Below, one piece after another: positions 3,153 through 21,053 of a stretch of DNA of 21,236 nt. The number at the start of each line of letters is the position of its first letter. The first letter of the stretch is position 1. Origin of the DNA: a virus; the IMG/VR virus record IMGVR_UViG_3300035195_000286, positions 1 through 21,236 of that record, one strand, 5' to 3'. Below the pieces are notes generated by a model. That model was not told the origin of the DNA. It did no database searches and saw only the letters and a list, made by a program, of their open reading frames with translations. Made by a program: the position numbers and the translations under genes.

Positions 3153-4068
3153 TGTACACTCCTATAATTGGTTTTATCTTTTCTTCTTCTAAATTTAGTA
3201 TATCTCGTAAGTATACTACAAGTTCATCACTCATGGACATATCAGAAGTAAGAGACAATGTAGCTTCTACATGTCGTTTTACAACTTTCTTGTCTAAGAG
3301 TTCTGAGTTCTTAATCTTTGCCAAATCCTGAACGTCGCCTTCGAGTTCGTAAATTGTATGGTCAAAGTCAGTCTGTATCATACTGTCTGGGTCTGATACA
3401 GTTTTTCTGATTAGCTGAGGTAAATCAAGTTCATGCCATGTCCATGACCAATCCTTGTCTATAAGTAAAGCACCTGTCTTTACTCTGTTCCTGTGGAAAC
3501 TGGTTGTCATAGGACTGCCAGGATATACTATGTTTCTTTGAGTATTCTCGTGAGCATGTAAATCTCCAGCAAAGACAGTCTTAAACTTGTCAAACCTTTC
3601 TAATTCTACTTCAGGCATTACATGAGGGGGTATTTCCCCCCTAACATGCGTAAAAAGAATCTCGGCATCTATCGACTCTATACTGTTTTTGCGGTGCAAA
3701 TCAGCATAAGGTAATATAGCCCAATCATCTTGTACATAAGTAGAGTCTATAACCTCTACTAATGCGTTAACATCTGAAGTTGCTTTCTTTAGGTTAGTAA
3801 AGAAAGTCTTATTCTTCCTAGTAGCTTCATGATTTCCGTCATAAATAATAGTAGGAATAGTTACCCTTCTTATAAAATCAAAGTATAGGGTAAGTTCGTC
3901 CATTGAGGGGACTCGATCAAACAAATCCCCGCCAATGATGTGCAAATCACAGTCATTTTCCAACTCAGTAATCTGGTCAAAGAACATAGTGTATCTATTG
4001 GTTGCCCAATCTACAGGTACGTTTTTCTGTCCGAGTTTAATGTGCCAGTCGGCTGTGTATAATATCAT
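3121..4068 (-). CDS. SbcD/gp47-like metallophosphoesterase nuclease subunit
   Basis: A 315-residue calcineurin-like phosphoesterase, the nuclease partner of the SbcC-like ATPase downstream. Metal-site motifs appear in order: MILYTADWHIKLG (D7, H9), IGGDLFDRVPS, YDGNHEA, FTHVRGEI and FAGDLHAHEN. The reading frame is open to 4095, but the ATG at 4068 is chosen because it places the first motif at the N-terminus as in the family and because it forms a 4-base ATGA overlap with the peroxiredoxin stop. The family makes double-strand exonuclease and hairpin endonuclease activities with Mn. It lies in the operon SSB - peroxiredoxin - SbcD - SbcC - ACP - resolvase - exonuclease. The assignment is strong. 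Confidence 0.95.
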   Translation of the reverse strand: MILYTADWHIKLGQKNVPVDWATNRYTMFFDQITELENDCDLHIIGGDLFDRVPSMDELTLYFDFIRRVTIPTIIYDGNHEATRKNKTFFTNLKKATSDVNALVEVIDSTYVQDDWAILPYADLHRKNSIESIDAEILFTHVRGEIPPHVMPEVELERFDKFKTVFAGDLHAHENTQRNIVYPGSPMTTSFHRNRVKTGALLIDKDWSWTWHELDLPQLIRKTVSDPDSMIQTDFDHTIYELEGDVQDLAKIKNSELLDKKVVKRHVEATLSLTSDMSMSDELVVYLRDILNLEEEKIKPIIGVYNDYSTEVSLG

Positions 4069-4577
4069 GCTACGAAGTCGTCTCCTGGTTGCCATTCACA
4101 ACCTGTAAGTCCACCAGCCTGTAAAGACTGTAATGTTCTTAGTACTTCGTTTGCATTTCTGCCTGTATCTAAAGCATTTACTGATACATGCTGTATATAG
4201 CCTTCTGGGTCTATAATGTAAGTGGCTCTAAGAGCTACACCTTCATTATTATCAACTATACCTAACTCTTCAGCTAGGTATAATCCACAGTCAGCAGCTA
4301 AGGTATGGTTGATATTTCGTATTGCTCCAACAGCTGTTTTCCAAGCCATCTTACAATACTCATTATCGCCACTAATACCTATAACTTCAGCATGTTCTAC
4401 AAGTATATCCATACCCGCAATCTCGGTCGGACATATAAAAGTAAAGTCTTTGGGGTAAAAATAAATTACCAACCACTCGCCGTCTACTTCAGACCACGTG
4501 TCGACTTCAACCATTTCATCGTTCAGGTCTACACAGTTAAGTGTGTAAAGCGGAAACTTTTGTCCTACTCCAATCAT
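4065..4577 (-). CDS. 2-Cys peroxiredoxin (AhpC/Prx1-like)
   Basis: A 170-residue thioredoxin-fold peroxidase reducing H2O2 or organic peroxides. The catalytic motif PKDFTFICPTE gives P42, T46 and peroxidatic C49; an active-site Arg is likely R117 in ALRATYIIDPEG. C160 in LTGCEWQPGDDF occupies the resolving-cysteine place of typical 2-Cys enzymes (usually VCPA-W-PG). SGDNEYCKMAW matches the family's S-x-D-x(4)-H-x-A-W region with His replaced by Lys or Cys. It is slightly shorter than bacterial AhpC (about 187). It has 4-base overlaps at both ends, with SSB and the SbcD-like gene, so it is an integral part of the DNA-metabolism operon rather than a loose insertion. It needs a host or phage reductant; the glutaredoxin at 8685-9005 is a possible source. 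Likely role: protecting the infected cell or DNA enzymes from peroxide. Confidence 0.93.
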   Translation of the reverse strand: MIGVGQKFPLYTLNCVDLNDEMVEVDTWSEVDGEWLVIYFYPKDFTFICPTEIAGMDILVEHAEVIGISGDNEYCKMAWKTAVGAIRNINHTLAADCGLYLAEELGIVDNNEGVALRATYIIDPEGYIQHVSVNALDTGRNANEVLRTLQSLQAGGLTGCEWQPGDDFVA

Positions 4578-5209: not shown

Positions 5210-5596
5210 CTATAATGTCTCCTCGTATTTGAAGTGGATTATTCCATCTCTAATCTCGAGCAGTCTGTTTTGGTTAATAGTGTTCTCACTTACTTGACAG
5301 TAAATGAGATCTAGTGTGGTGTCTTTTGTTTTTGCGTACTCGAAAGAATTACGGAATGAAGCAACACCTACATACTCCGCAACCTCTTTATCGCTAAAGG
5401 CACGCCCTTTTTCAAGTAGTGCAACTGGGTTAACCAGAAAGCTACTACCATGAAAGCTTTTTTCATAAAACCTAAAGGTCTTATCATAATAATTTTTAGG
5501 AATCTTTTTATAAGTCACAATCCTTAGTATGGTTATGATGTCACCAACATTGCCATGGCTTGCTTCTAAAATCTTCTTCCAGTCAAAATATATCAT
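5210..5596 (-). CDS. conserved-looking phage protein of unknown function
   Basis: A 128-residue protein with no family I can name. It begins MIYFDWKKILEASHGNVGDIITILRI, is mixed charged and aromatic, and has no signal peptide or membrane segment. It is the first gene after promoter P2, leading into SSB and the recombination genes, so it is probably an early DNA-metabolism protein. The start is puzzling: the ATG at 5596 lies only two bases after the -10 box of P2 and has no Shine-Dalgarno, so a transcript started at the usual distance from P2 would lack it. Translation may use readthrough RNA from the helicase gene upstream, or a later start such as GTG 5518, which has AAGGA but only two bases away. 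The coding frame is convincing; the N-terminus is uncertain. Confidence 0.75.
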   Translation of the reverse strand: MIYFDWKKILEASHGNVGDIITILRIVTYKKIPKNYYDKTFRFYEKSFHGSSFLVNPVALLEKGRAFSDKEVAEYVGVASFRNSFEYAKTKDTTLDLIYCQVSENTINQNRLLEIRDGIIHFKYEETL

Positions 5597-5669: not shown

Positions 5670-6950
5670 TTACTTGATGTTCACCTTATAATCTTGTTTA
5701 ACATAATATCCCATTCGTGCATTAGCCTGCCTACTAGCAGTTTTTCCTAACAAATGTATATCTACTATTTTGGGCTGTATTTTGCCCTCTTTTTTACGAA
5801 TAACCCTACCGATTAACTGTGTAAGAAGTGGTTCGTTGTTTACTGGTGTAGCCAGTATTAGACAACTTAGCACATCTAGAGAGATACCTTCTGAGAAAAT
5901 TGACTGCGTACCAAACAGAATATTTCTGTCAGCACCCATTCTCCTCATAGTATTTTCTCTTTCCGTAAAATCCATGTCTCCGGTTATGCAGACTGCATTT
6001 TCACCAACCAATCGTTGACACACTTTAAGGAATGAGACTCTATCCGATACTACTAGTACCTTATGACCTTCCGCAGCATATGTTGACGCAATCAGAGCAA
6101 TACTATGTATATATTCTTCGTTCTCTGCCAAATGATTGATTCTTTCTGCCCAAGGAGTAAACGATCCGTCAAGGAATCGTATATCACTTTTGATACAATC
6201 TATTTCTGGAATCATGTAGTTTTCTTTAGGCGGTTTATGTACGTTCTGACCAAAGTAATCCCTGAATACTACGTGTCTGCCGTCCTTCCTCTCTAGTGTT
6301 CCTGTTAGTCCCACTTTGAATCTTGCTGGCATTTCGTCTACTATTCGGGTAAACGTCGGCGACGAAACATGGTGCATCTCGTCTAGGATTACTGTCCCGA
6401 ACAAATGTTTTATCTCGTCTATCCTGCGGTATAAACTCTGAATGTTTCCCACTACTATCGGAGACGAAGTGTTGAACTCCCCGCTTCCGATTCTCCCTGC
6501 CTTTATCCCAAAGCATTTTTGTACCTCTTTTTCCCACTGATTACGTAGGTTTGTAGTATGTGTTACTACTAATGTTTTCTGACCAAGCTTAGCAGCTATA
6601 GAAAGACCTGTAAAAGTCTTTCCCCAACTTACCCAAGCGTTAATTATAGCATTGTCTTCTACTGCGTCGTAAACTCTCTGCTGGGACGCACGTAATTTGA
6701 ACTTAAATTCAGGAAACACCGTCGGCGCTTGTACGCGCTTATCGATAATCTCGTAGTCCTCTGGTATCAAATCAATTCGCCCGACAGGTATGGAAACCAA
6801 ACCTTCTTTTAAAGGGCGAATTGTTTTAATTATCATAGGTGGGTCTTGCGGCATACGAGGAGGCAACGTATAAGTCAGCTCCTGCTCTAGTAACCCAAGG
6901 AAACGACTGTCGCCTTGCAACTGTATTCTGTTGCTTATGACTGCCTTCAT
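5670..6950 (-). CDS. SF2 helicase, UvsW-like
   Basis: A 426-residue superfamily 2 helicase resembling T4 UvsW and the DEAD/DEAH-type phage helicases that remodel forks, D-loops and R-loops. Motifs in order: Q/I region FKLRASQQRVYDAV (about 83-96), motif I WVSWGKTFTG, Ia VVTHTTNLRNQW, II ILDEMHHV (DEMH), III GLTGTLERKDG, then in the second RecA domain VLVVSDRVSFL, IV/V GTQSIFSEGISLDVL and VI QLIGRVIRKKEG. Motif I is unusual: the glycine-rich turn before GKT is replaced by VSW. ATG 6950 overlaps the asparagine synthetase-like gene by four bases (ATGA), so it is the last gene of the metabolic cassette transcript and separated from SSB by promoter P2. The assignment as helicase is strong; UvsW orthology is inferred. 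Confidence 0.92.
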   Translation of the reverse strand: MKAVISNRIQLQGDSRFLGLLEQELTYTLPPRMPQDPPMIIKTIRPLKEGLVSIPVGRIDLIPEDYEIIDKRVQAPTVFPEFKFKLRASQQRVYDAVEDNAIINAWVSWGKTFTGLSIAAKLGQKTLVVTHTTNLRNQWEKEVQKCFGIKAGRIGSGEFNTSSPIVVGNIQSLYRRIDEIKHLFGTVILDEMHHVSSPTFTRIVDEMPARFKVGLTGTLERKDGRHVVFRDYFGQNVHKPPKENYMIPEIDCIKSDIRFLDGSFTPWAERINHLAENEEYIHSIALIASTYAAEGHKVLVVSDRVSFLKVCQRLVGENAVCITGDMDFTERENTMRRMGADRNILFGTQSIFSEGISLDVLSCLILATPVNNEPLLTQLIGRVIRKKEGKIQPKIVDIHLLGKTASRQANARMGYYVKQDYKVNIK

Positions 6951-8452
6951 GCACCTAGCCTTTTCAGTAACTCTAGATCTTCATCTCTCCAACGCATTGA
7001 TTGAGTGTGATGGTTATTGTCCCATGGGGAGCTCCACCCTGTTTTCTGTTTTCTCTCTATAACATGTTGGGGTATATAATCTTTCATAACTTCTCTCATT
7101 AAATACTTTGTAGTACCAGCTGCGTACCCTTTAATGTGTTTGAATCTTGTTGCTGTAGGAACACCTAAAACATAGTGTACATAGCGCTGAGTAAGTAGAG
7201 GTATTCTAGCCTCCATTCCAAATAATCCGACTGTTTGGTCAGTTGCTAGGATATTCTGTTCGGAAGTTGTGAGCAAGTCTATAAAAAGACTCATGCCCAT
7301 AGGGTCACCCTGCTCTAGCATATTTTGGGGGAACCATCTTTTATCTTTCATACTTTCTAGCATTTGTAAACAGTAGGCTGGGTCAAAACGTTTGTCATGA
7401 TGTAAATATCCTGAGTATAATTCATCTCCGCTATCTCCTGTTAATACTACTTTACAGCCATGTTCGGCTGCTGCTCTTGCTAGTAAGTATCTAGGGGCTT
7501 GTCTATTATGATCTGACCATGCGTAATGCGTGCCTGCTAGCCAGGTCTTACCTAATGCTATTCGTTGGTCTCTACCTAAGTCTACTTTTACTACTTCTCT
7601 GCCCCATAGTTCTCCGCTTTTTATAGCCATTCTGCTTTCTTCTTGGAAACCCATGTGTTCATGACTATTTCCTTTTTCGTTACTATAACCGCAAGTGAAA
7701 AGCGTGATATCCTTAGTACTTTCACGGCATATAGATGCTACTAATTGGCTGTCGAACCCGCCACTTAGAAATATTGCATGTTTGTTGGTAGAATTACCAT
7801 AATTTGCTACTTTTAAAATAGACTCTTTTGTTTTTTGTATAAAATCTTCGGGATTAAACTTATCTTTCCTAAGTACGAAGTAATTCCACAGATTGTGTCT
7901 ACGGAGTTTCCAATTATTAGTGTTGAATTCCAGTACTCCACCTGGTTCTACTTTATGGTAGCCTTTCCATATACACTCGTCTCCCATAGAGCCAAATTTT
8001 CTTTCATTTACATTTAGTTCTTTATGTAAGAAAGATTTACAACTTGTACTAAATTCAAAGGTCTTTCCGTCATACCCCCACCATAGAGGTTTTGTTCCAA
8101 ATTGATCTCTAATTAGAACTAATTTCTCCAGTTGTGGCATATAGTACATAATACTGCCATGCCAGTCTGTCCATTCTAAAACGGAAGTACCGTACTTGTC
8201 CAGCATTTTGCCGAGCCATACAGTATCGTTAGGTATTCTAGAATCATACATCTCTCCATTCAGCATGACTATATTACCTTTGTCAGTAACTATAGGCTGC
8301 TTTTGACCCGCTCCTGTTATATCAAGTAAAGCGTGCCCAAGATGTATTTTTGCATCTCCCCAGAAAGAAAGAGCATCTGGACCTCGATGCTCTTGTTTCT
8401 TTAGCATTATATGTGCTAAATGCTTATTGGTAGTACCTATAAATCCACACAT
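6947..8452 (-). CDS. glutamine-dependent asparagine synthetase-like amidotransferase
   Basis: A 501-residue two-domain protein. The N-terminal class II glutaminase has Cys2 in MCGFIGTT, HRGPD (22-26), NGEMYD (65-70) and RDQFGTKPL (115-123). The C-terminal ATP-pyrophosphatase domain has the PP-loop SGGFDS (230-235) and LTGDSGDELYSGY (337-349). The classical product is asparagine from aspartate, glutamine and ATP, but this fold also amidates other carboxylates. It is shorter than bacterial AsnB (about 550-630). GHALLDITGAGQKQP appears to lack the Arg of the usual GHxRLxI segment that binds glutamine, an inference from memory of AsnB. The start ATG overlaps the upstream stop as TGATG. The helicase follows with an ATGA overlap. 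In this context it may amidate a small-molecule precursor rather than simply supply asparagine. Confidence 0.9.
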   Translation of the reverse strand: MCGFIGTTNKHLAHIMLKKQEHRGPDALSFWGDAKIHLGHALLDITGAGQKQPIVTDKGNIVMLNGEMYDSRIPNDTVWLGKMLDKYGTSVLEWTDWHGSIMYYMPQLEKLVLIRDQFGTKPLWWGYDGKTFEFSTSCKSFLHKELNVNERKFGSMGDECIWKGYHKVEPGGVLEFNTNNWKLRRHNLWNYFVLRKDKFNPEDFIQKTKESILKVANYGNSTNKHAIFLSGGFDSQLVASICRESTKDITLFTCGYSNEKGNSHEHMGFQEESRMAIKSGELWGREVVKVDLGRDQRIALGKTWLAGTHYAWSDHNRQAPRYLLARAAAEHGCKVVLTGDSGDELYSGYLHHDKRFDPAYCLQMLESMKDKRWFPQNMLEQGDPMGMSLFIDLLTTSEQNILATDQTVGLFGMEARIPLLTQRYVHYVLGVPTATRFKHIKGYAAGTTKYLMREVMKDYIPQHVIERKQKTGWSSPWDNNHHTQSMRWRDEDLELLKRLGA

Positions 8453-8694
8453 CAGCTAAGCACTTTCCAACTAAGAATAGTATCAGGGTCAATATCGTCC
8501 CACCTCTGAAACTCTATATCATAAGCAATCATTTTATTACTTGTAGGCAGATTAGTAAAGAGTTGATGTTTTTTAGGTATCACATCATAACTAAGTGTCA
8601 TTTCTCTACTTTTCTTTGTACCAGAAATAAGACTAGTGTACTCTACTAAGCAGATGTGATTCTTCATTTTCTCTATAATTTTATCTATGTCCAC
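8452..8694 (-). CDS. small beta-rich phage protein, DUF2693-like
   Basis: An 80-residue protein starting at GTG 8694, which has GGAG five bases upstream. The pattern (an initial helix, then HICLVEYTSLISGTKKSREMTLSYDVIP and a final WDDIDPDTILSWKVL) recalls the small SH3-like protein family common in T4-like cyanophages, where a V-x-F-T-K-x-(D/S)G-x-x-R-x-M-x-x-T motif occurs (DUF2693 as I remember it). Here the equivalent is VEYTSLISGTKKSREMTL. The function of that family is unknown to me. It overlaps the glutaredoxin gene by 10 bases and the amidotransferase start by one base, so it is translated within the same unit. The family link is moderate to weak; the coding call is good because of its fit between neighbours. 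Confidence 0.68.
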   Translation of the reverse strand: MDIDKIIEKMKNHICLVEYTSLISGTKKSREMTLSYDVIPKKHQLFTNLPTSNKMIAYDIEFQRWDDIDPDTILSWKVLS

Positions 8695-9005
8695 GTTTTC
8701 TCCAGTTCGGTATACCCACCGATTTTTTCTCCATCAAGTATTATCTGAGGGAATGTTCTTGCATTGGGAAACTCTTTCGCCATCTCTAGCCTATCAAAGT
8801 CTCTATCAAGTTTCTTGTACATGGTTTTTACGCCCTTCTGTTGGCATAGCTTTAACGCCATCTCACAGTAAGGACAGTTGTCTTTTCCATAAATTATTGC
8901 TTCCATTTTTCTCCTAAATATGTTATCCCAGTTATCGGAATAAGCTTGACTGCTAGGCTTAGTCTTTATGAGGTCGCCTGTAATGTCGTTTTTTGTTGTT
9001 TTCAT
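8685..9005 (-). CDS. glutaredoxin
   Basis: A 106-residue protein with a glutaredoxin domain preceded by a 34-residue charged N-terminal extension. Motifs: IIYGKDNCPYCEMALKL with the CPYC redox centre, the cis-proline loop ARTFPQIILDG, and GGYTELEK for glutathione binding. It should reduce disulfides using glutathione, for example in host or phage ribonucleotide reductase, or support the phage peroxiredoxin at 4065. The frame can be extended to TTG 9017, but ATG 9005 gives a 4-base ATGA overlap with the stop of the preceding gene, like other junctions here, and is preferred. It sits between two genes of unknown function in the metabolic cassette. The domain assignment is firm; the substrate is unknown. 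Confidence 0.92.
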   Translation of the reverse strand: MKTTKNDITGDLIKTKPSSQAYSDNWDNIFRRKMEAIIYGKDNCPYCEMALKLCQQKGVKTMYKKLDRDFDRLEMAKEFPNARTFPQIILDGEKIGGYTELEKTWT

Positions 9006-9496
9006 ATCATACACCAAGTGCTTTTTTGTTCTTCAACTGCAAAGTCTCGAATTTCCCAAGGAAGCCCTCGTCTGTATACTATACCTGCCCATGCTACGTC
9101 CTCACTAGGTGGGGTTGCTACTTCCATGAGCCTGTCTATACCTTTAAACTTTATCATTGTTGCTACGCCTCTTTTGAAACGCTTTGTTATCTTGTGGTAG
9201 TGTATTTTGCACTTCTCTGTTTTTTCATACGCTATCACTCTGCCATGATTATCAACAAAGTTTTTTCCTCTATGTTGACTCATGCCTATTATATCTCTTA
9301 TCATATACCTTAGGGAATATAAATTTTTCATAGGAGTTTGCATTCTTCTTATACCTAGAGTATCTCCTACCATATTCTTGTCATCTAGCACCTGATTATC
9401 TAGCCATAGAATACCATCTATTAGCTCGACATTCTCACTATGTATAACGTAAACTGGGAAGACTAAATCTTCCCAAGTATCAACTCTATCTTGCAT
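9002..9496 (-). CDS. protein of unknown function next to the acyltransferase-like gene
   Basis: A protein of 164 residues from ATG 9496, which has GGGAG seven bases upstream. The frame extends upstream to TTG 9574, adding 26 very basic residues (MKRRLSKSLRARQRSQRR...) and overlapping the preceding gene by 17 bases; that TTG also has AAGGA about seven bases before it, so the longer form is possible. Visible elements: VFPVYVIHSENVELIDGILWLDNQVLDDKN, TLGIRRMQTPMKNLYSLRYMI, KCKIHYHKITKRFKRG, and a C-terminus GIVYRRGLPWEIRDFAVEEQKSTWCMI. The alternating hydrophobic pattern suggests mainly beta structure. I recall similar proteins in large marine myoviruses but cannot name a function. It has no membrane segment. 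The position, between acyltransferase and glutaredoxin, suggests it belongs to the same cassette. Confidence 0.72.
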   Translation of the reverse strand: MQDRVDTWEDLVFPVYVIHSENVELIDGILWLDNQVLDDKNMVGDTLGIRRMQTPMKNLYSLRYMIRDIIGMSQHRGKNFVDNHGRVIAYEKTEKCKIHYHKITKRFKRGVATMIKFKGIDRLMEVATPPSEDVAWAGIVYRRGLPWEIRDFAVEEQKSTWCMI

Positions 9497-9557
9497 CTTG
9501 TTACTCCCAAGAGTCCAAATTCTTCGCTGAGACCTTTGTCTCGCTCGTAAACTTTTA

Positions 9558-10151
9558 CTAAGTCTGCGCTTCAATGAACTTCCTTATTATCGGTTCAGCT
9601 TCCTCTTGTGGGGTTGGTTCCCATACCCATTGCCACCCATCGTACCCATACTCGTCTTTCTGTGTTCCTAGGTATTGTAGCCCAGGCATAGACTCCTTAA
9701 AGTAATTTACGTACATATGACCTGCTTCATACAAATCCATGATGGCATGTTCTACTCCCTGTACTTTTACTCCCCATTCTGGAGCCCATAAGCATGGAGA
9801 TTCTTTGTTCTTATCTACAGGAAATAAATGACACTTACTGTCAGTAATCCAACCTTTGTCCCAGATTGAATATCTCCTGCCATATAGCTCTTTAGCCAAG
9901 TGTGGCGGAATTATCCTTACACATGCTACTATTTCGCTATCTCTGTTTTTAATCCATAGAAAGTAAGACTCTTGATCTAACGCATCTATAGGATTCATAA
10001 TTCGTTGATTGCCTACTACGAACATTTCTACTCGTTCTTGGCATGTTTTTGCATACTCTTCTTTTGTTATGCTGTCGTAATGGAATAATTCTCTAATGTA
10101 CCCGTTACTGTATATCCTTCTTGCTATTGCTTTTCTGCTGTTATTTTCCAT
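9558..10151 (-). CDS. LuxI/FeeM-like GNAT-fold acyltransferase (putative acyl-ACP-dependent)
   Basis: A 197-residue protein. The first half follows the autoinducer-synthase layout: R40-V-E-M-F44 (family R-x3-F), acidic D56 and D59 in NPIDALDQ, a strand pair SYFLWIKNRDSEIVACVRIIPP, with R79 about 20 residues after D59 as in LuxI (C-x-R-L-L-P). The second half is GNAT-like: a strand LWAPEWGVKV, a long helix VEHAIMDLYEAGHMYVNYF, and closing strands. The Trp after the first motif and the E-x-S-R strand motif of true LuxI are not evident, so the substrate may not be homoserine lactone; FeeM-type N-acyl amino acid synthases are an alternative, and they too use acyl-ACP. A phage ACP is encoded at 1107. 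The start overlaps the oxygenase-like gene by 28 bases, without a clear Shine-Dalgarno. The fold is likely; the exact activity is inference. Confidence 0.55.
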   Translation of the reverse strand: MENNSRKAIARRIYSNGYIRELFHYDSITKEEYAKTCQERVEMFVVGNQRIMNPIDALDQESYFLWIKNRDSEIVACVRIIPPHLAKELYGRRYSIWDKGWITDSKCHLFPVDKNKESPCLWAPEWGVKVQGVEHAIMDLYEAGHMYVNYFKESMPGLQYLGTQKDEYGYDGWQWVWEPTPQEEAEPIIRKFIEAQT

Positions 10152-10732
10152 TGGTGGCTGTCCGGGTTGTGTTGTGATTTGTAGTTATCTCCATAGTTTA
10201 TTCGTCTATCTTTATTATCTAGATAACCTCCTGCTTCTACATAGTATAAATTTAAGGTAGTTAATGAATCAAGTTTTAATCTATGCCTGCCATGGTATGT
10301 CTCGGCAGCGTTAAATATTACTGCATCTCCTTGATGGCAGCTCAATATCATACTAGGCTTTTGTTCTCCCTCAATGAGAGGGTTATCCTGCCCTTCGATA
10401 AATCCCATAGGCCAGCTATCGTCACTAATCTGTATTATTACAGCGTGTTCTGCTTCCCACCTGTTTCTATGCCACCCCAAAAAAGAATGTTTAGCATATC
10501 TTCGTACCATTGAGTAACTAAGAACAACATCTTTGTTTAATAAGTTTGCTACTGTGTCTCTGTAAACGAGTCCAATTCCATCAGATAAAGGGTCTCCGCC
10601 CAGTTGAAAGTGTGTTCCACTTTTTCCTTTATATCTGCTTACATTTCTATTCAGTATACGTAAGTCCATATACTTATTTACTATATCACACTCATGAGGA
10701 CTCATGAAAGAACTTTGCTTGAAAGGTTTCAT
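10124..10732 (-). CDS. 2OG-Fe(II) oxygenase-like protein (prolyl-4-hydroxylase type)
   Basis: A 202-residue protein resembling phage and bacterial P4H-like dioxygenases, which hydroxylate proteins or small molecules with O2 and 2-oxoglutarate. Supporting segments: VVLSYSMVRRYAKHSFLGWHRNRWEAEHAVIIQIS (69-103), CHQGDAVIFNA (132-142, the usual P-x-x-G-D-A-V-I-F turn), and TYHGRHRLKLDSLTTLNLYYV with distal H147 and a basic residue (R151 or K153) for 2OG. The iron motif H-x-(D/E) reads H88-R-N90, so the carboxylate ligand is replaced by Asn, unless E93 serves; this could mean altered or lost iron binding. ATG 10732 overlaps the QueC-like gene by four bases. It is embedded in the metabolic cassette. 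The fold is moderately certain; the substrate is unknown. Confidence 0.68.
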   Translation of the reverse strand: MKPFKQSSFMSPHECDIVNKYMDLRILNRNVSRYKGKSGTHFQLGGDPLSDGIGLVYRDTVANLLNKDVVLSYSMVRRYAKHSFLGWHRNRWEAEHAVIIQISDDSWPMGFIEGQDNPLIEGEQKPSMILSCHQGDAVIFNAAETYHGRHRLKLDSLTTLNLYYVEAGGYLDNKDRRINYGDNYKSQHNPDSHQWKITAEKQ

Positions 10733-11532
10733 TCCATGTCCTTCATTATCGTACTAAAATACTTGATACCCTCCTGGTAGCGAAATACACCATCTTGTGC
10801 TGTCTTTTTCGCCTGCAATAACTCTAAACACTTGTAACATACATTACAAGGCTCAAATCCTAATAATCTTCCATTTTTTCTTATCTCGCCTTTAGGCTGA
10901 TAACAAGTCCATAGTAACTCTAACATCTTCGGCTCTTCTCGCATAATAAGTGCATACATTTCCGCTTTAGTTAAGAACTCCAATGGGTTTCGTACTTCAG
11001 GGGTTTCTCTACACGCTGATAGTTTAACTCCTGTTCCATCTAAGCAATCACTAGCGTAAAGAGCCATAATCTTTCTGTACTCTCTAAACTGTAATCGCAT
11101 TCTCATGTCATCTTCTGCATTAGCTCCCATCATGAACCATTTGAACTTGATTCCTCCAGGTGCGCCTAATACTACTGACATAAAGGAGGATAGTCCCGAT
11201 ACAATAATCGGAACTTCCCTCGTGTGTGGTAGAACTGATAGCATTGATTTATCGTTACCATATGGTAAGTTATAAAACTCTGCTTGTTTCTGCGTATAAA
11301 ACGCCATGGCGTCCGAAAACATTCCACCGCGTTGTTCATACCAATATACACAGAATGGGTGCATGTCAGGATCTCTTTGCGTGTAAATTAGAGCCGCTGT
11401 GGACTCTACACCTGCGCTGAGAGGCATATAGGTATTAGTTCTAGGGTCAGCATTATTTATTGCGTTAACAATATCGTCCGATGACTTAAGAGTCTGATTC
11501 TCTAGTTTTGGTACCTTAATTTTTGTTGGCAT
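10729..11532 (-). CDS. QueC-like PP-loop ATPase with zinc-binding cysteines
   Basis: A 267-residue adenine-nucleotide alpha-hydrolase. An N-terminal PP-loop PLSAGVESTAALIY (37-50) and a C-terminal LTKAEMYALI...LWTC210YQP...PC229NVC232YKC235LELL resemble QueC (7-cyano-7-deazaguanine synthase), which has K-T-K-x-E-I...SC-Y...CG-x-C-x-x-C. QueC turns 7-carboxy-7-deazaguanine plus ammonia into preQ0 for queuosine, archaeosine or phage DNA modification. The PP-loop is degenerate: SAGVES instead of SGG(L/V)DS. No other queuosine gene (FolE, QueD, QueE) or DpdA transglycosylase is visible in the window, so a different ligase or amidating activity on a carboxylate is possible. ATG 11532 has GGAG eight bases upstream and overlaps the SDR gene by 17 bases. 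The superfamily is firm, the QueC function is not. Confidence 0.75.
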   Translation of the reverse strand: MPTKIKVPKLENQTLKSSDDIVNAINNADPRTNTYMPLSAGVESTAALIYTQRDPDMHPFCVYWYEQRGGMFSDAMAFYTQKQAEFYNLPYGNDKSMLSVLPHTREVPIIVSGLSSFMSVVLGAPGGIKFKWFMMGANAEDDMRMRLQFREYRKIMALYASDCLDGTGVKLSACRETPEVRNPLEFLTKAEMYALIMREEPKMLELLWTCYQPKGEIRKNGRLLGFEPCNVCYKCLELLQAKKTAQDGVFRYQEGIKYFSTIMKDME

Positions 11533-12160
11533 TGCTCTTCTCCAAGCTAATCAATACATTCGTTGTTGCCTTGTCCCGTAACAGAGTCATATCCTTTAAT
11601 GGTTTGAATTTGGCGTTTACTAGTATCTCAGACACTACGTAATTTTGAGGTTGCGCAAGGTTAATTAAAATCAGTGCGGCCTCGTAGGGGTCAATAAAGT
11701 ACTCCCCGTCCTCAACTCCATCTAGGATTGCCGAATTTGTCCAACCCATACTAACATTGTGTAATCTACACTTGTTAATATGCGGGTAGTTAACAGCAGC
11801 TTGTATTGAATATTCTCGTAACTCAGTTTTGTCCTTTTCGTATATGTCTGAACCTATACTGTAATAACTGGTAGCTGAGCCAGTGCTAATAACAACTTTA
11901 TTATTATGCTTTTTCCATTGTGTATGTAATATCTTCTGGATCTTGTTCTGTATTCGAGGCACCCAAGCGTGATTAAACACGATATCTGCATCAAATCTTA
12001 ATATATCGTTGAGAACGTCGTCCCCACCTTTCATTAGATCAAAACCATTACTCCGTGAGTAACCCCTTACGTCAGCGCCATGATGTAAACAATACTGATA
12101 AATTTCTAAACCAATACCACTTGTGTGTCCTGTCACTGCTACTCTTTGTCCTCTTAACAT
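11516..12160 (-). CDS. short-chain dehydrogenase/reductase (SDR)
   Basis: A 214-residue Rossmann-fold oxidoreductase. The nucleotide-binding TGHTSGIG is at 10-17, the NAG-like position reads NHAW (64-67), a catalytic-type Ser lies in VVISTGSATSYYS (90-101), and Y107-E-K-D-K111 gives the YxxxK catalytic pair. Classical SDRs have about 250 residues, so it is slightly short in the C-terminal substrate region. It probably oxidises or reduces a small alcohol or ketone with NAD(P). The frame opens at GTG 12166, but ATG 12160 is chosen: AGGA is eight bases upstream of it and the Rossmann motif follows at the usual distance. It is the first enzyme of the metabolic cassette and overlaps the QueC-like gene by 17 bases. 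The assignment is good; the substrate is unknown. Confidence 0.87.
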   Translation of the reverse strand: MLRGQRVAVTGHTSGIGLEIYQYCLHHGADVRGYSRSNGFDLMKGGDDVLNDILRFDADIVFNHAWVPRIQNKIQKILHTQWKKHNNKVVISTGSATSYYSIGSDIYEKDKTELREYSIQAAVNYPHINKCRLHNVSMGWTNSAILDGVEDGEYFIDPYEAALILINLAQPQNYVVSEILVNAKFKPLKDMTLLRDKATTNVLISLEKSNANKN

Positions 12161-12179
12161 ATCCACGATCCTTATTCTC

Positions 12180-17350: not shown

Positions 17351-18081
17351 ATCTTTTTCCTAAAATAATGTGTTTTCCACTTAGTTAGCGGATAACCAAA
17401 GAAGTAATGTAAAAACAACTGATACACTCCCTCTACTGTTATAATATTATATGCGTGATTGCCCTGGGGCGTACCTATATCGTAAAAGTACTTGTTGTTT
17501 ACATATATTGAAAAACCTGTGGTCTTTCTTATTTTTTGCCACTCTAATTTTCTTTCTGGCGTATCATACGTATCTGCGCCTAAATATACATCTGTAGATA
17601 GTGAAAAATCATAAATATCTGCTACTCCTTCGCCTCTACCAGACCTATGTAGTGCTATCCACTTTATTAGGTTGTTGCCCTGTCTATCTCTAAGAATAGG
17701 TTTTATATTGTTAAAATAAGGTGCGTACTGCATTCTATTAGTGCATCGTGGGTCTACTACCCAGCCTACTAATCTAACTTCAGGAAGTACTTTCTTTAGT
17801 ATTATTCTGTTTGTGCCTGGGTGTATGTTAAAAACTTGTTTTTCTAAGTCTCCGTATACAATAATCGGGTCTCGAAAGCCTAGTTTCCCTGACCTGTGTC
17901 GTTCTAGAACTGAGTCTATAAATACATATAGTCGTAAGTAAATTCTGTTTTCATTGTGATAAAGCCAGCCTTGGGCGCCCTGTGTCGTTTGCCACTCTCC
18001 ACAAAGTCCAATAAACTTAGTGTCTACGTCAAAAGCGAAAATACCTGCTCTAAAAGCTGGTGCCCATCTACTATAAATCAC
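17347..18081 (-). CDS. unknown protein, possibly ParB-fold-related
   Basis: A 244-residue protein starting at GTG 18081, with GGAG nine bases upstream, inside the end of the helicase gene. The middle has DPIIVYGDLEKQVFNIHPGTNRIILKKVLPEVRLVGWVVDPR, in which P-I-x-V-Y followed by H-P-G-T-N-R is reminiscent of the G-x-x-R box of ParB/Srx-like domains; this is weak. Other visible parts: WQTTQGAQGWLYHNENRIYLRLYVFIDSVLERHRSG and a C-terminal aromatic segment GVYQLFLHYFFGYPLTKWKTHYFRKKI. There is no signal peptide or clear membrane span. It ends with an ATGA overlap into the cupin gene. It appears to be a phage-specific protein of the replication operon. Confidence 0.6.
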   Translation of the reverse strand: MIYSRWAPAFRAGIFAFDVDTKFIGLCGEWQTTQGAQGWLYHNENRIYLRLYVFIDSVLERHRSGKLGFRDPIIVYGDLEKQVFNIHPGTNRIILKKVLPEVRLVGWVVDPRCTNRMQYAPYFNNIKPILRDRQGNNLIKWIALHRSGRGEGVADIYDFSLSTDVYLGADTYDTPERKLEWQKIRKTTGFSIYVNNKYFYDIGTPQGNHAYNIITVEGVYQLFLHYFFGYPLTKWKTHYFRKKI

Positions 18082-19432
18082 TGTAGTCTTCTCCAGTATT
18101 CATACTTTCCCGCATTTCTGCTTTCTCGTCGGGGTCTATAGCTGTATGTGGTCCGATCTTTAGTGTTTCCCAGTCGATTTCCGAGATAAATGACTTCATC
18201 TCTCCACTACGCATTTTATTACATTTGAATTTGATTGCATTCTCTTCTTTGCCCCAATGTTCTAGGGTATACGACGCATCTACTGCATCTTCGATACCTT
18301 TGGAGAATCTTACCTCTCCTTTAGGGTTTGTTTGGAACGCTGATATGACCAATACTTCTTGGTCTTGGGCGAGTGCCTTCAATCCCTTTGAAATCTCTAT
18401 TTGTTCAGTCCATTCGTACTGACCAGAGCGACTAGGAGCATTGTGACGACGTACTTGGTTTAGATAATCTACAATTACCATACCCAGATCGGGGTACTCT
18501 ATCTTCTTCTGCCTAACTGTACTAATAATCTTAGCAAGTGTAAGTGAAGGGTCAAAGAATACATCTAACTGAGCCTCTTTCTTTAATTCACACTTTCGAG
18601 TGAGTGCATAGTGGAATTTGTCAAAATCTGTGGAAACATTCCAGTCCGCTAGGACTTCACTGCCTCCTTCAAATCTATCTGCCCACCACTCACCGATGCG
18701 TTTCCACTCTTTCTCATAAAGATTTCTCTTTATCAGTCTGCCTAGTGGTACACCTGTGGCCATGCTACACATTCTTTGCAGAATAGGTCGCTGATCCATC
18801 TCGATAGTAAAGTAAAGCACGGAACGTCCTGATTGCTGGGCATTGACAGCCATATTACAGCAAGCAAATGATTTTCCGTGACCTCGTTGCGCCCCCACAA
18901 TGACCAAGTCTTTGGGAGAGAATTGATAAGACAAGTCGTAGTCTTGGTTTAACCCTAAGCCTAAGTACTTTGCCAAATCGTCTTCAGAATCGAACAACTC
19001 AACCGTTTCCATTGTATCTTGGTCGTCGGCTGTGTTAACTCGATCTTGAACTTGTACGACCATCTCTTGCAGATAGTCGATATTCTCCTTTGCGTCAGCA
19101 ACGGAGATTGTTTCGTCTAAATAATGTTCTATCTTGGCTAGGATTTCATTCTGTGTGAACATATCCTTAAGATATTCTAATAGTTCGTGCGCTGGAGTAT
19201 CAGTCTCCACAGCCTCTATCGCAAAGATTTTCTCTTGGAGTTCTCTGGAACGTATTTCATACTTCAAATCCTCAAAAGAGGGAAGCGCATGAAACTTATG
19301 GACGTGTTTATCCACGACCTTCCAAATCTTTTGGTACTCGCCTTCAGGTAAATAATGCACCTGTAAGCGGTTCCAAGTCTCGAAATCTCCTTGCGATAAA
19401 AGTTGTTTTATAAGTGCACTTTCTACTGTCAT
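18071..19432 (-). CDS. replicative DnaB-like helicase
   Basis: A 453-residue hexameric-type helicase. The N-terminal region (1-150) is helical like a DnaB N-domain. The RecA-like core has Walker A VGAQRGHGKSF (179-189), the catalytic Glu of YFTIEM (E211), Walker B MVIVDYLNQVR (318-328), a Gln sensor and Arg-finger region VISAFQTNPKGEVRFSKGIEDAVDASYTLE, and an acidic tail. It unwinds DNA ahead of the polymerase and pairs with the separate primase at 15107. The frame opens at TTG 19444, but ATG 19432 is preferred because GGGAGAG lies immediately upstream at correct spacing. It begins just 14 bases after the T-tract of a hairpin terminator, so its expression depends on readthrough or antitermination from P1. 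Identity is strong. Confidence 0.95.
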   Translation of the reverse strand: MTVESALIKQLLSQGDFETWNRLQVHYLPEGEYQKIWKVVDKHVHKFHALPSFEDLKYEIRSRELQEKIFAIEAVETDTPAHELLEYLKDMFTQNEILAKIEHYLDETISVADAKENIDYLQEMVVQVQDRVNTADDQDTMETVELFDSEDDLAKYLGLGLNQDYDLSYQFSPKDLVIVGAQRGHGKSFACCNMAVNAQQSGRSVLYFTIEMDQRPILQRMCSMATGVPLGRLIKRNLYEKEWKRIGEWWADRFEGGSEVLADWNVSTDFDKFHYALTRKCELKKEAQLDVFFDPSLTLAKIISTVRQKKIEYPDLGMVIVDYLNQVRRHNAPSRSGQYEWTEQIEISKGLKALAQDQEVLVISAFQTNPKGEVRFSKGIEDAVDASYTLEHWGKEENAIKFKCNKMRSGEMKSFISEIDWETLKIGPHTAIDPDEKAEMRESMNTGEDYSDL

Positions 19433-19444
19433 AATCTCTCCCAA

Positions 19445-19470
19445 GAAAAAGCAGGGGAGCGAACTCCCCT
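19445..19470 (-). terminator. Rho-independent terminator or attenuator
   Basis: On the minus strand a perfect 7-bp stem AGGGGAG/CTCCCCT (19470-19464 and 19459-19453) closes a TTCG loop (19463-19460) and is followed by GCTTTTTC. This lies between the stop of the tandem-HTH gene (19495) and the helicase ATG (19432). It should end or reduce transcription from P1, giving more of the HTH and ligase proteins than of helicase. Confidence 0.85.
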
Positions 19471-19494
19471 ACAATCTTGACAATTAAAAAGTTG

Positions 19495-20217
19495 TTATTG
19501 AGTAACTCTTTCTTTTCTAGCTGATCCGTCGTAGTCAGCACATACTAAACCACGTCTTGTAAGCATTGTTTTCACGCCTCTTACAGTTTTACCGATTGAG
19601 TCGGCGATAGCGTCGACAGTCATGCCGTCGATTTCCATGTCAGCTAAAGGGTCTGCTTTGCCTGAACCTTTAGTTTCTTTCTGCTTAGGGATAGCGTTAA
19701 TTTCGCCAGCTCTTAGCAAAGAAAGTGCTTTACCTCTGATAGAGTTTACACTCTTTCCTAGGCTTTCAGCAATCTCTTCAATGAAAGATCCACCGTTGAC
19801 CATCTCAACAAATGTTCCTTCTTCAGCTTCAGAATAAGTCTTAACTGACTCAACTTTAGGAGCAGGTTTAACATGCTCTGTAAGTTGCATTGAAAGGATT
19901 TTGCCTTGAATTGATTTAGCAGAAAAGTTTCCGCCTTCAAAATTCGAAGCGATTTCAGCGTATGTGTAAGAACCTGAGTTATCAGTTACAAATGCTGAAA
20001 GGGTAGCCTCTTGTGCATCACTAAAAGATTTAGTGTTGCTAGATGAAGCCAATTCTACATCATAACCCATTTTTCTCAACTTGCTAGAAACACTTCTTAC
20101 TGAAGTTTCTAAGTCTGTTGCAGCGTTAGCTACAGTAGATTGAGATACTGGGGATTCAGAGCCTACAAAGCTCTCAAGAGATGATGTTCTCTCGTCTGTC
20201 CATTTTGGTAATGCCAT
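19495..20217 (-). CDS. tandem Myb/HTH-like DNA-binding protein, four repeats
   Basis: A 240-residue protein built from four copies of a short helical module. R1 6-54 (WTDERTSSLESFV ... VRSVSSKLRKMGYDV), R2 65-111 (FSDAQEATLSAFV ... AKSIQGKILSM), R3 128-172 (YSEAEEGTFVEMV ... VNSIRGKALSLLRAGEI) and R4 193-228 (DGMTVDAIADSIGKTVRGVKTMLTRRGL). Each has a (W/F/Y)-(S/T)-(D/E)-x-x-E/R start in the first three, and an E-I-A-x-S-x-G-K-(S/T)-V-x-(S/G)-(I/V)-(R/K) recognition-like helix. This recalls SANT/Myb or sigma-like HTH domains, so it probably binds DNA as a regulator or an abundant DNA-organising protein. ATG 20217 has GGAG nine bases upstream. It lies between strong promoter P1 and a terminator, so it should be abundant. 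The fold is inferred from repeat comparison by eye. Confidence 0.7.
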   Translation of the reverse strand: MALPKWTDERTSSLESFVGSESPVSQSTVANAATDLETSVRSVSSKLRKMGYDVELASSSNTKSFSDAQEATLSAFVTDNSGSYTYAEIASNFEGGNFSAKSIQGKILSMQLTEHVKPAPKVESVKTYSEAEEGTFVEMVNGGSFIEEIAESLGKSVNSIRGKALSLLRAGEINAIPKQKETKGSGKADPLADMEIDGMTVDAIADSIGKTVRGVKTMLTRRGLVCADYDGSARKERVTQ

Positions 20218-20221
20218 TTTA

Positions 20222-20977
20222 TTATTCTCCGATTAAATTTAAAATGCTTGTTATTATAATGACACCGCGGTCTTGCGCTGCCTTAGTTTTGGCTGACTCA
20301 ACTCCTGACTCGTTTATTAAATGAGTGCAGTCCTTTGTCAGACTGTTTTTTACGGCATAGCCGTGTTGTTCCAGAACTTCCGCCGCATGAGCCTTGCTGG
20401 GATATGAATTGAGTCTACCACTAATACAGACTGTACCGATTATCTCTCGTTTTACAACTTTAGTTGCAGAAAAAGAGAAAGGAAGTTTTGATTTGTATTT
20501 GTTAGGATAAAATTCTGATTCTAACCATTGCATTAGGTTGCTTGTTGCTTTTGGGCCAATACCCGCTTCAGTACAACTTTTCTCAGATATATCTTCGAGT
20601 GAAGATATAGTCTCGCATAATTTTTGAGAAGCTGACCGACCGAAAAGTGGAATTGAGAAAGCTGGCAATAAAGTTTGCAAATCTACTGATTTTGACTTCT
20701 CAATTTCAATAGCTAATTTTATAGCCAGTCTCTCCGAGCCAAGTCTTAAGGAAATATCCTCAACGGTTAGCTCATACAATTCTGGATAGTCTCCGATATC
20801 CAACTTACTAATGCAAGCTGGGCCGAATCCTTTTATTTTTAAGAGTTTTCCGAAATGCTCCAACTTCTTACTCCATTGTGCTGGACACATCTTGTTTAGG
20901 CAGTAAATTAGGTCGTTGACCCAAGTTACATCACCCTCACAGGAAGGACAAGCAGTTGGCGGTAAAATTTGGCTCAT
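20222..20977 (-). CDS. NAD-dependent DNA ligase C-terminal subunit (Zn finger-HhH-BRCT)
   Basis: A 251-residue protein matching only the C-terminal half of bacterial LigA. A Cys4 zinc finger C10PSC13...C26LNKMC31PAQ is followed by helix-hairpin-helix repeats (about 41-165, e.g. KIKGFGPACISKL and AGIGPKATSNLM) and a BRCT domain (about 172-251: IIGTVCISGRL...AEVLEQHGYAV...KDCTHLINESGVESAKTKAAQDRGVIIIT). The adenylation and OB domains are absent, so it cannot be a ligase alone. Phages such as T5 encode split NAD-ligases as two subunits, and the partner is expected upstream of base 21236; it is not in the window. It is the first gene after P1; ATG 20977 has an AGAGAG element about ten bases upstream. 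It ends four bases before the next gene's ATG. It seals nicks with its partner, or binds DNA ends if no partner exists. Confidence 0.88.
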   Translation of the reverse strand: MSQILPPTACPSCEGDVTWVNDLIYCLNKMCPAQWSKKLEHFGKLLKIKGFGPACISKLDIGDYPELYELTVEDISLRLGSERLAIKLAIEIEKSKSVDLQTLLPAFSIPLFGRSASQKLCETISSLEDISEKSCTEAGIGPKATSNLMQWLESEFYPNKYKSKLPFSFSATKVVKREIIGTVCISGRLNSYPSKAHAAEVLEQHGYAVKNSLTKDCTHLINESGVESAKTKAAQDRGVIIITSILNLIGE

Positions 20978-21012: not shown

Positions 21013-21053
21013 ATTATAGAGGAAATTTAACCTCTTGTCAAGAACTATTTTTT
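21013..21053 (-). promoter_or_regulatory. sigma70-type promoter P1 with conserved upstream box
   Basis: On the minus strand TTGACA (21041-21036) and TATAAT (21018-21013) are spaced by exactly 17 bases, with AAAAAATAGT upstream of the -35 identical to P2. The predicted start is about 21006, giving a leader of about 29 bases before the ligase-subunit ATG. It lies in the 81-base gap between that gene and the 43-residue ORF. It should be a strong early promoter for host RNA polymerase. Confidence 0.9.

Follow-up and report, generated by a model that had tools for sequence, protein, structure and literature searches.

In bacteriophage T5, D5 is an older candidate for the switch from early to late gene expression, and work from 1979-1983 reportedly described its product gpD5 as binding double-stranded DNA and influencing both replication and the expression of late genes. 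The classical gpD5, which we take to be a protein of ~29 kDa, fits the HTH protein (27.1 kDa; the T5 helicase has a mass of 57.5 kDa). In the T5 record AY692264 the HTH protein is listed as T5p116, 'putative transcription factor', and the helicase bears the name D5; elsewhere, in records and papers, the HTH protein goes by D5 or T5.118, and we use D5 in this sense. Relevant sections of a 2026 preprint (PMC13405049) describe T5 D5 as a trigger of retron-Kva2: the D5 HTH is predicted by AlphaFold3 to bind the retron-Kva2 msDNA, mass photometry shows that D5 remodels the retron complex, escape mutants are altered in D5, D3 and D2, and D5 expressed alone is mildly toxic. The mechanism of T5 early/late switching is described as unknown in PMC7472727, which puts forward a different protein, gpT5.026, and from which the terms gpD5 and gene D5 are absent. 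D5 is also unnamed in the relevant parts of PMC11879866 and PMC13250531, the latter of which refers to one unnamed protein, putatively DNA-binding, that was detected under blocked infection. In the T5-like phage AKFV33, 32 promoters and 19 terminators are given in the corresponding section of PMC3326045. None of the papers listed by our search, with the older T5 literature lying outside it, states the combined promoter, hairpin and codon pattern described below.

The window analysed here is the whole 21,236-base virus record IMGVR_UViG_3300035195_000286, and its features are collected in Table 1. In a profile search, residues 2-237 of its 240-residue HTH protein match phrog_323 ('transcriptional regulator, D5-like'; E 1.1e-42), the family to which T5 D5 also belongs (E 1.2e-71). 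T5 D5 is longer, with 255 residues, and is 46.5% identical over 83% of the query; the closest relative among the matches listed for named records is D5 of Vibrio phage VCPH (50.4% identity over 99%). A tblastn search with the protein had hits in 898 of the 50,697 phage records, and in 895 cases at least 80% of the query is covered; three further D5 loci lie in genome_contigs, all on MAG contigs. A Vibrio phage D5 protein ranked first in a BFVD Foldseek search with the D5 model (E 2.0e-25). The same model gave no PDB match at E <=0.001 in Foldseek; PDB sequence searches gave one weak match with the single protein (E 0.012) and seven weak matches with the D5 profile (best E 0.0016), none named phage D5. 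No NCBIfam match was seen at E <=0.1, and a megablast search of phages with the whole window as query gave no match, very near records possibly having been left out of that comparison. As judged by sequence, the protein is the T5 D5 homologue of an uncultured T5-like phage and belongs to a known protein family.

Table 1. Features of the D5 region; positions refer to the window
Feature	Position	Strand	Basis
Perfect sigma70-type promoter TTGACA-17-TATAAT before ligB-D5	21013..21041	-	Consensus match; recurs in relatives
ligB, C-terminal part of split NAD-dependent DNA ligase, first gene of ligB-D5 unit	20222..20977	-	phrog_3498 E 9.8e-57
D5-like four-HTH protein gene, 240 aa	19495..20217	-	ORF, ATG start
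HTH module 1, residues 1-52	20062..20217	-	Repeat score 17.5 with module 4; helices 8-18, 26-35, 40-49
HTH module 2, ~residues 63-113	19879..20031	-	Repeat scores 15.2 and 14.6 with module 3; helices 67-79, 86-92, 100-109
HTH module 3, ~residues 127-174	19696..19839	-	Repeats with modules 2 and 4; helices 130-141, 146-153, 157-169
Shorter HTH module 4, ~residues 194-226, sigma70 region 4-like	19540..19638	-	PF08281; helices 201-208, 212-222
Intrinsic-terminator-like hairpin and T-tract between D5 and helicase	19443..19472	-	9 pairs, TTCG loop
DnaB-like replicative helicase gene	18071..19432	-	ATG at 19432; phrog_19 E 2.4e-54; PF03796 E 5.7e-23

The neighbourhood of D5 is that of T5. As in T5, where ligB occupies the same place, D5 sits between ligB and the replicative helicase in a T5-type replication cluster. 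The T5 order ligB-D5-helicase-primase-polymerase-D10-D11-D12, which two Vibrio phages continue to a D13-like subunit, is found in the window as ligB, D5, helicase, primase, polymerase, D10-like helicase and D11-like single-strand-binding protein, followed by D12- and D13-like nuclease subunits and an exonuclease, with extra genes inserted. T5 further shares with the window a hairpin with T-tract after D5 and, as annotated in its record, promoters before ligB; VCPH has the same local gene order and differs in its hairpin stem. The initial annotation, which placed a four-repeat HTH protein between a promoter and a terminator, had captured a real arrangement, but it missed the T5 D5 family and ligB as the first gene of the unit. 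In each of the 65 loci (of 80) with all three genes, D5 showed higher conservation than ligB and helicase (medians 83, 63 and 66%), a figure biased towards D5 because the loci were picked by D5 similarity.

Comparisons were made with 51 representatives from isolate genomes and metagenome contigs, less than 92% identical to each other; three ORFs of 134, 186 and 189 aa and the window itself (L003) had been dropped before clustering. Together with the window protein, the representatives form the 52-sequence alignment A2. A 59-member set adds 8 of 10 named phages (L085 and L086 were left out), which were not clustered against the representatives, so that some members are effectively duplicates (T5 occurs twice). 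The 129 and 133 'unique' loci referred to below are unique sequences, not independent lineages.

Both an internal repeat alignment and structure prediction, proposed as checks along with the initial annotation, bear out its four divergent HTH copies, the fourth being shorter. In A2, none of 300 column permutations reached the scores of four 28-column repeat pairs (1-4, 3-4 and two segments of 2-3), the best of which scored 17.5, the highest null score being 14.4. Pair 1-3 was reached by 8 and pair 1-2 by 38 of the 300 permutations, which are a lenient null for module repeats. The AlphaFold2 model computed from A2 displays three three-helix modules and a shorter two-helix fourth. Its pLDDT of 87.8 and pTM of 0.37 mean that the local structure is confident and the overall arrangement of the modules is not. 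The recognition helices, 44 of the 240 residues, contain 21 of the 33 invariant residues (hypergeometric p 2.5e-10). These invariant positions, the HTH modules and the D5 homology lend indirect support to the earlier suggestion of a DNA-binding protein.

In the model, modules 1 and 3 adopt a three-helix fold similar to the DNA-binding domain of Caulobacter GcrA (Z 7.2, rmsd 1.8 over 47 residues and Z 6.9, rmsd 1.5 over 44 residues, respectively), which tops the list for both; GcrA has one such module compared with four in D5. The Pfam GcrA profile has no match in the window D5 and weak matches in 8 of the 52 A2 members at E <=0.1. Tandem Myb repeats in spliceosome chains, presumably CDC5L/Cef1, resemble modules 2-3 in fold alignments that span 90-96 residues (Z 6.1-6.7); the rmsd of ~11.5 indicates that the relative orientation of the modules differs. 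Module 4 matches sigma70 region 4 (PF08281) at residues 195-221 above the Pfam curated cut-off (E 6.6e-08), and 51 of the 52 A2 members match this profile at E <=0.1.

The module 4 match, the GcrA likeness and the enrichment of invariant residues in the recognition helices would also suit a sequence-specific transcription factor, sigma- or GcrA-like, that acts at few promoters and whose abundance is incidental. Yet all VIA-align rows have Z <8, a value common for small helical folds, and rows within Z 1 count as tied; the Pfam scan recognized no RNA polymerase-binding part in D5; and the codon adaptation and virion-preparation data below indicate large amounts of the protein. We regard such a factor as rather unlikely. 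A sigma70 factor proper was rejected, as only the 27-residue region 4 match is seen and region 2 is absent among the five Pfam rows at E <=1. An HU-type nucleoid protein was discarded as well: the HU profile is absent among the same five rows, and the model is a mostly helical HTH structure. D5 is acidic (pI 5.18), with charges of 0, -2, -4 and +1 on modules 1-4, which is unusual for a DNA-coating protein and a point against the explanation preferred below.

The claim that D5 follows the strongest-looking promoter had to be modified. A perfect promoter does lie ~0.8 kb upstream of D5, but it stands in front of ligB and is tied with two equally perfect sites on the same strand, at 15988-15960 before the primase gene and at 5627-5599 before ORF 5210-5596. 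Directly at the D5 start, the one site listed scores 9/12. The position of the perfect promoter before ligB defines the unit as ligB-D5. In its relatives, 115 of 133 unique ligB upstream regions score 11 or 12 of 12, compared with a shuffle mean of 8.2 that applies to these 160-nt regions and not to the 700-1020 nt stretch considered next. Among the 18 regions scoring below 11, 14 score 7-9, and in 13 of these ligB is called at >=266 aa, so that its start has probably been set too far upstream. When the stretch 700-1020 nt before D5 was searched instead, a promoter of at least 10/12 was present in 57 of 57 testable members (at least 11/12 in 55), 2 of the 59 having been omitted because upstream sequence was missing; the five low-scoring loci included in this rerun all reached at least 11. 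T5-type contigs carry an 11/12 promoter (TATACT) in place of the perfect 12/12 site of the window, and the T5 record annotates promoters P-K28b and P-K28a before ligB.

Promoter-like sites of all grades are about as frequent in the window as in its shuffles (60 versus 56.5), as would be expected if promoter and hairpin were chance matches in AT-rich phage DNA. Sites within one mismatch of the consensus at 17-nt spacing nevertheless exceed expectation (3 versus 0.36 from shuffles), and both elements recur at fixed places in divergent relatives with differing stem sequences, which leaves chance as a highly improbable explanation.

A G-C-rich stem followed by a T-tract, the layout of an intrinsic terminator, is found after the D5 gene. 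The TTCG-loop hairpin with T-tract described initially is present, except that its stem (19472-19451) comprises nine pairs, one of them G-T, not seven; TTTTTCTT follows, and with six G-C pairs the stem has the most among the terminator-like sites listed for the window. In an alignment inspected by eye, stem changes among close relatives come as paired substitutions, and the loop reads TTCG or GAAA. Downstream of D5, 108 of 128 unique regions beat their own 20 shuffles by two standard deviations, and for 115 unique gaps between D5 and the next ORF the median z of the folding energy is -3.5. A strong hairpin occurs in 107 of 129 unique loci, 102 of these with a T-tract; control offsets, all in coding sequence, yielded 9 hairpin and T-tract sites in total (12 offsets x 126-129 loci). 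The 59-member set gave a strong hairpin (score >=9) in 51 members, 48 with a T-tract. Of the eight members in which no strong hairpin was scored, L062 and L190 rise to 7.4 and 10.2 once longer loops are allowed, and others look mismatched by eye; among the three more without a T-tract after the hairpin, L123 has its Ts inside the scored stem. The record of phage Slocum annotates a terminator at the same place after D5, so the feature had already been noted.

In the window's clade (19433-19494 on the minus strand and L004-L027), TGTCARGA stands after the D5 stop and TCTTGGGAG before the helicase, with a variable stem between them; among 13 aligned sequences the former is kept in 12 and the latter in all, and the two could pair with each other. 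These flanks, together with the five of 129 unique loci in which a strong hairpin lacks a following T-tract (L123 among them), would be compatible with a hairpin that serves chiefly as an mRNA 3'-end or processing element, or in translational control of the helicase. Since 102 of the 107 strong hairpins do carry a T-tract and the outer pairing in 77 loci is no better than in shuffles (median p 0.45), we judge this distinctly unlikely and prefer a terminator. An outer stem hiding the helicase ribosome-binding site throughout the family was rejected on the same 77 loci, four of which had p <0.05 (window, p 0.225).

Within the 105 nt around the D5 stop, none of the 129 unique loci has a promoter of at least 10/12, the best site (9/12) being found in one locus. 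Sites that deviate from the consensus by at most one mismatch (17-nt spacing) are absent from the window between D5 and 15988, and the helicase therefore probably relies on read-through; a 10/12 site occurs inside the helicase gene at 19038-19011. The recurrent hairpin with T-tract and the lack of a >=10/12 promoter at the D5 stop thus indirectly support the layout behind the initial proposal that the downstream helicase may be attenuated.

Of 28 window genes hand-picked from 55 ORFs, D5 has the highest E. coli codon adaptation (0.301, next 0.245), of which only the rank is used here. It is likewise first among all 20 complete genes of the T5 locus L084 (0.695; ligB 0.233, helicase 0.256), first of 18 genes compared in VCPH (of 26 complete ones) and joint first of 14 in 234P1 (of 35). 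Despite the common promoter, ligB lacks the codon bias of D5. According to the relevant part of PMC8624392, spectral counts place D5 among the major proteins in purified virions of the T5-like phage phiR2-01; the same part reports that D5 was not identified in T5 virions, and the association may hence be carry-over. Codon rank and phiR2-01 abundance lend indirect support to the high expression proposed at the outset, and with it to an abundant DNA-binding regulator with a helicase behind a terminator.

Taken as a whole, the locus is very probably explained by a T5-like D5 in a promoter-driven ligB-D5 unit, with termination at the hairpin and helicase expression by read-through. Homology, modules, recurrent promoter and hairpin, codon bias and gene order are observed here; termination, abundance in this phage, and DNA binding and its role are what we infer from them. 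In this model, D5 would be an early protein, made in abundance, that binds double-stranded DNA and consists of four HTH modules in tandem; by analogy with T5, replication of the phage DNA and expression of late genes may depend on it. Transcription of ligB-D5 would be driven by a consensus promoter of the host sigma70 type, the hairpin would stop much of it, and read-through past it would supply the helicase and the following genes; promoter, terminator and codon choice would jointly yield high D5 output. It is conceivable, but unlikely, that ligB-D5 forms a fixed cassette in T5-like phages, uniting a consensus-like promoter, D5 as the only codon-optimized gene, a terminator-like hairpin and a helicase without its own promoter, in which the four-module D5, flooding the cell, coats the phage genome as a chromatin-like scaffold and, being partly carried in virions, is therefore exposed to retron surveillance.

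The arrangement is real and meaningful, and our addition is comparative sequence support for the promoter, hairpin and codon pattern. The recurrent promoter-ligB-D5-hairpin layout offers concrete sites for testing D5 in the early-late switch. The natural diversity of D5 is also relevant to phage defence, because T5 D5 triggers retron-Kva2 according to the sections of PMC13405049 cited above.

Several further features were noted. Relative to T5, the window carries an insert (6947-12166) between the D10-like helicase and polymerase genes. It encodes a thioredoxin-domain protein and an asparagine synthase that has a glutaminase domain, and four of its ORFs have no Pfam match; a QueC match is weak (E 0.0048, below cut-off), and by eye one ORF is short-chain dehydrogenase-like and one 2-oxoglutarate oxygenase-like. 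The insert is possibly a small-molecule or nucleotide modification cluster. An acyl-carrier-like protein (PF00550; 1107-1334) and a peroxiredoxin (AhpC/TSA; 4065-4577) lie inside the recombination gene block. In the T5 record AY692264 (L084, 9640-9760), the helicase is annotated as starting inside the hairpin that follows D5, at the loop; by eye, a later in-frame ATG behind AAAGGAGA is the likelier start. For Aeromonas phage AhSzq-1 (L086, 2492-3229), the annotation splits D5 into two CDS and breaks helicase and primase into short pieces, which suggests frameshift errors in the record.
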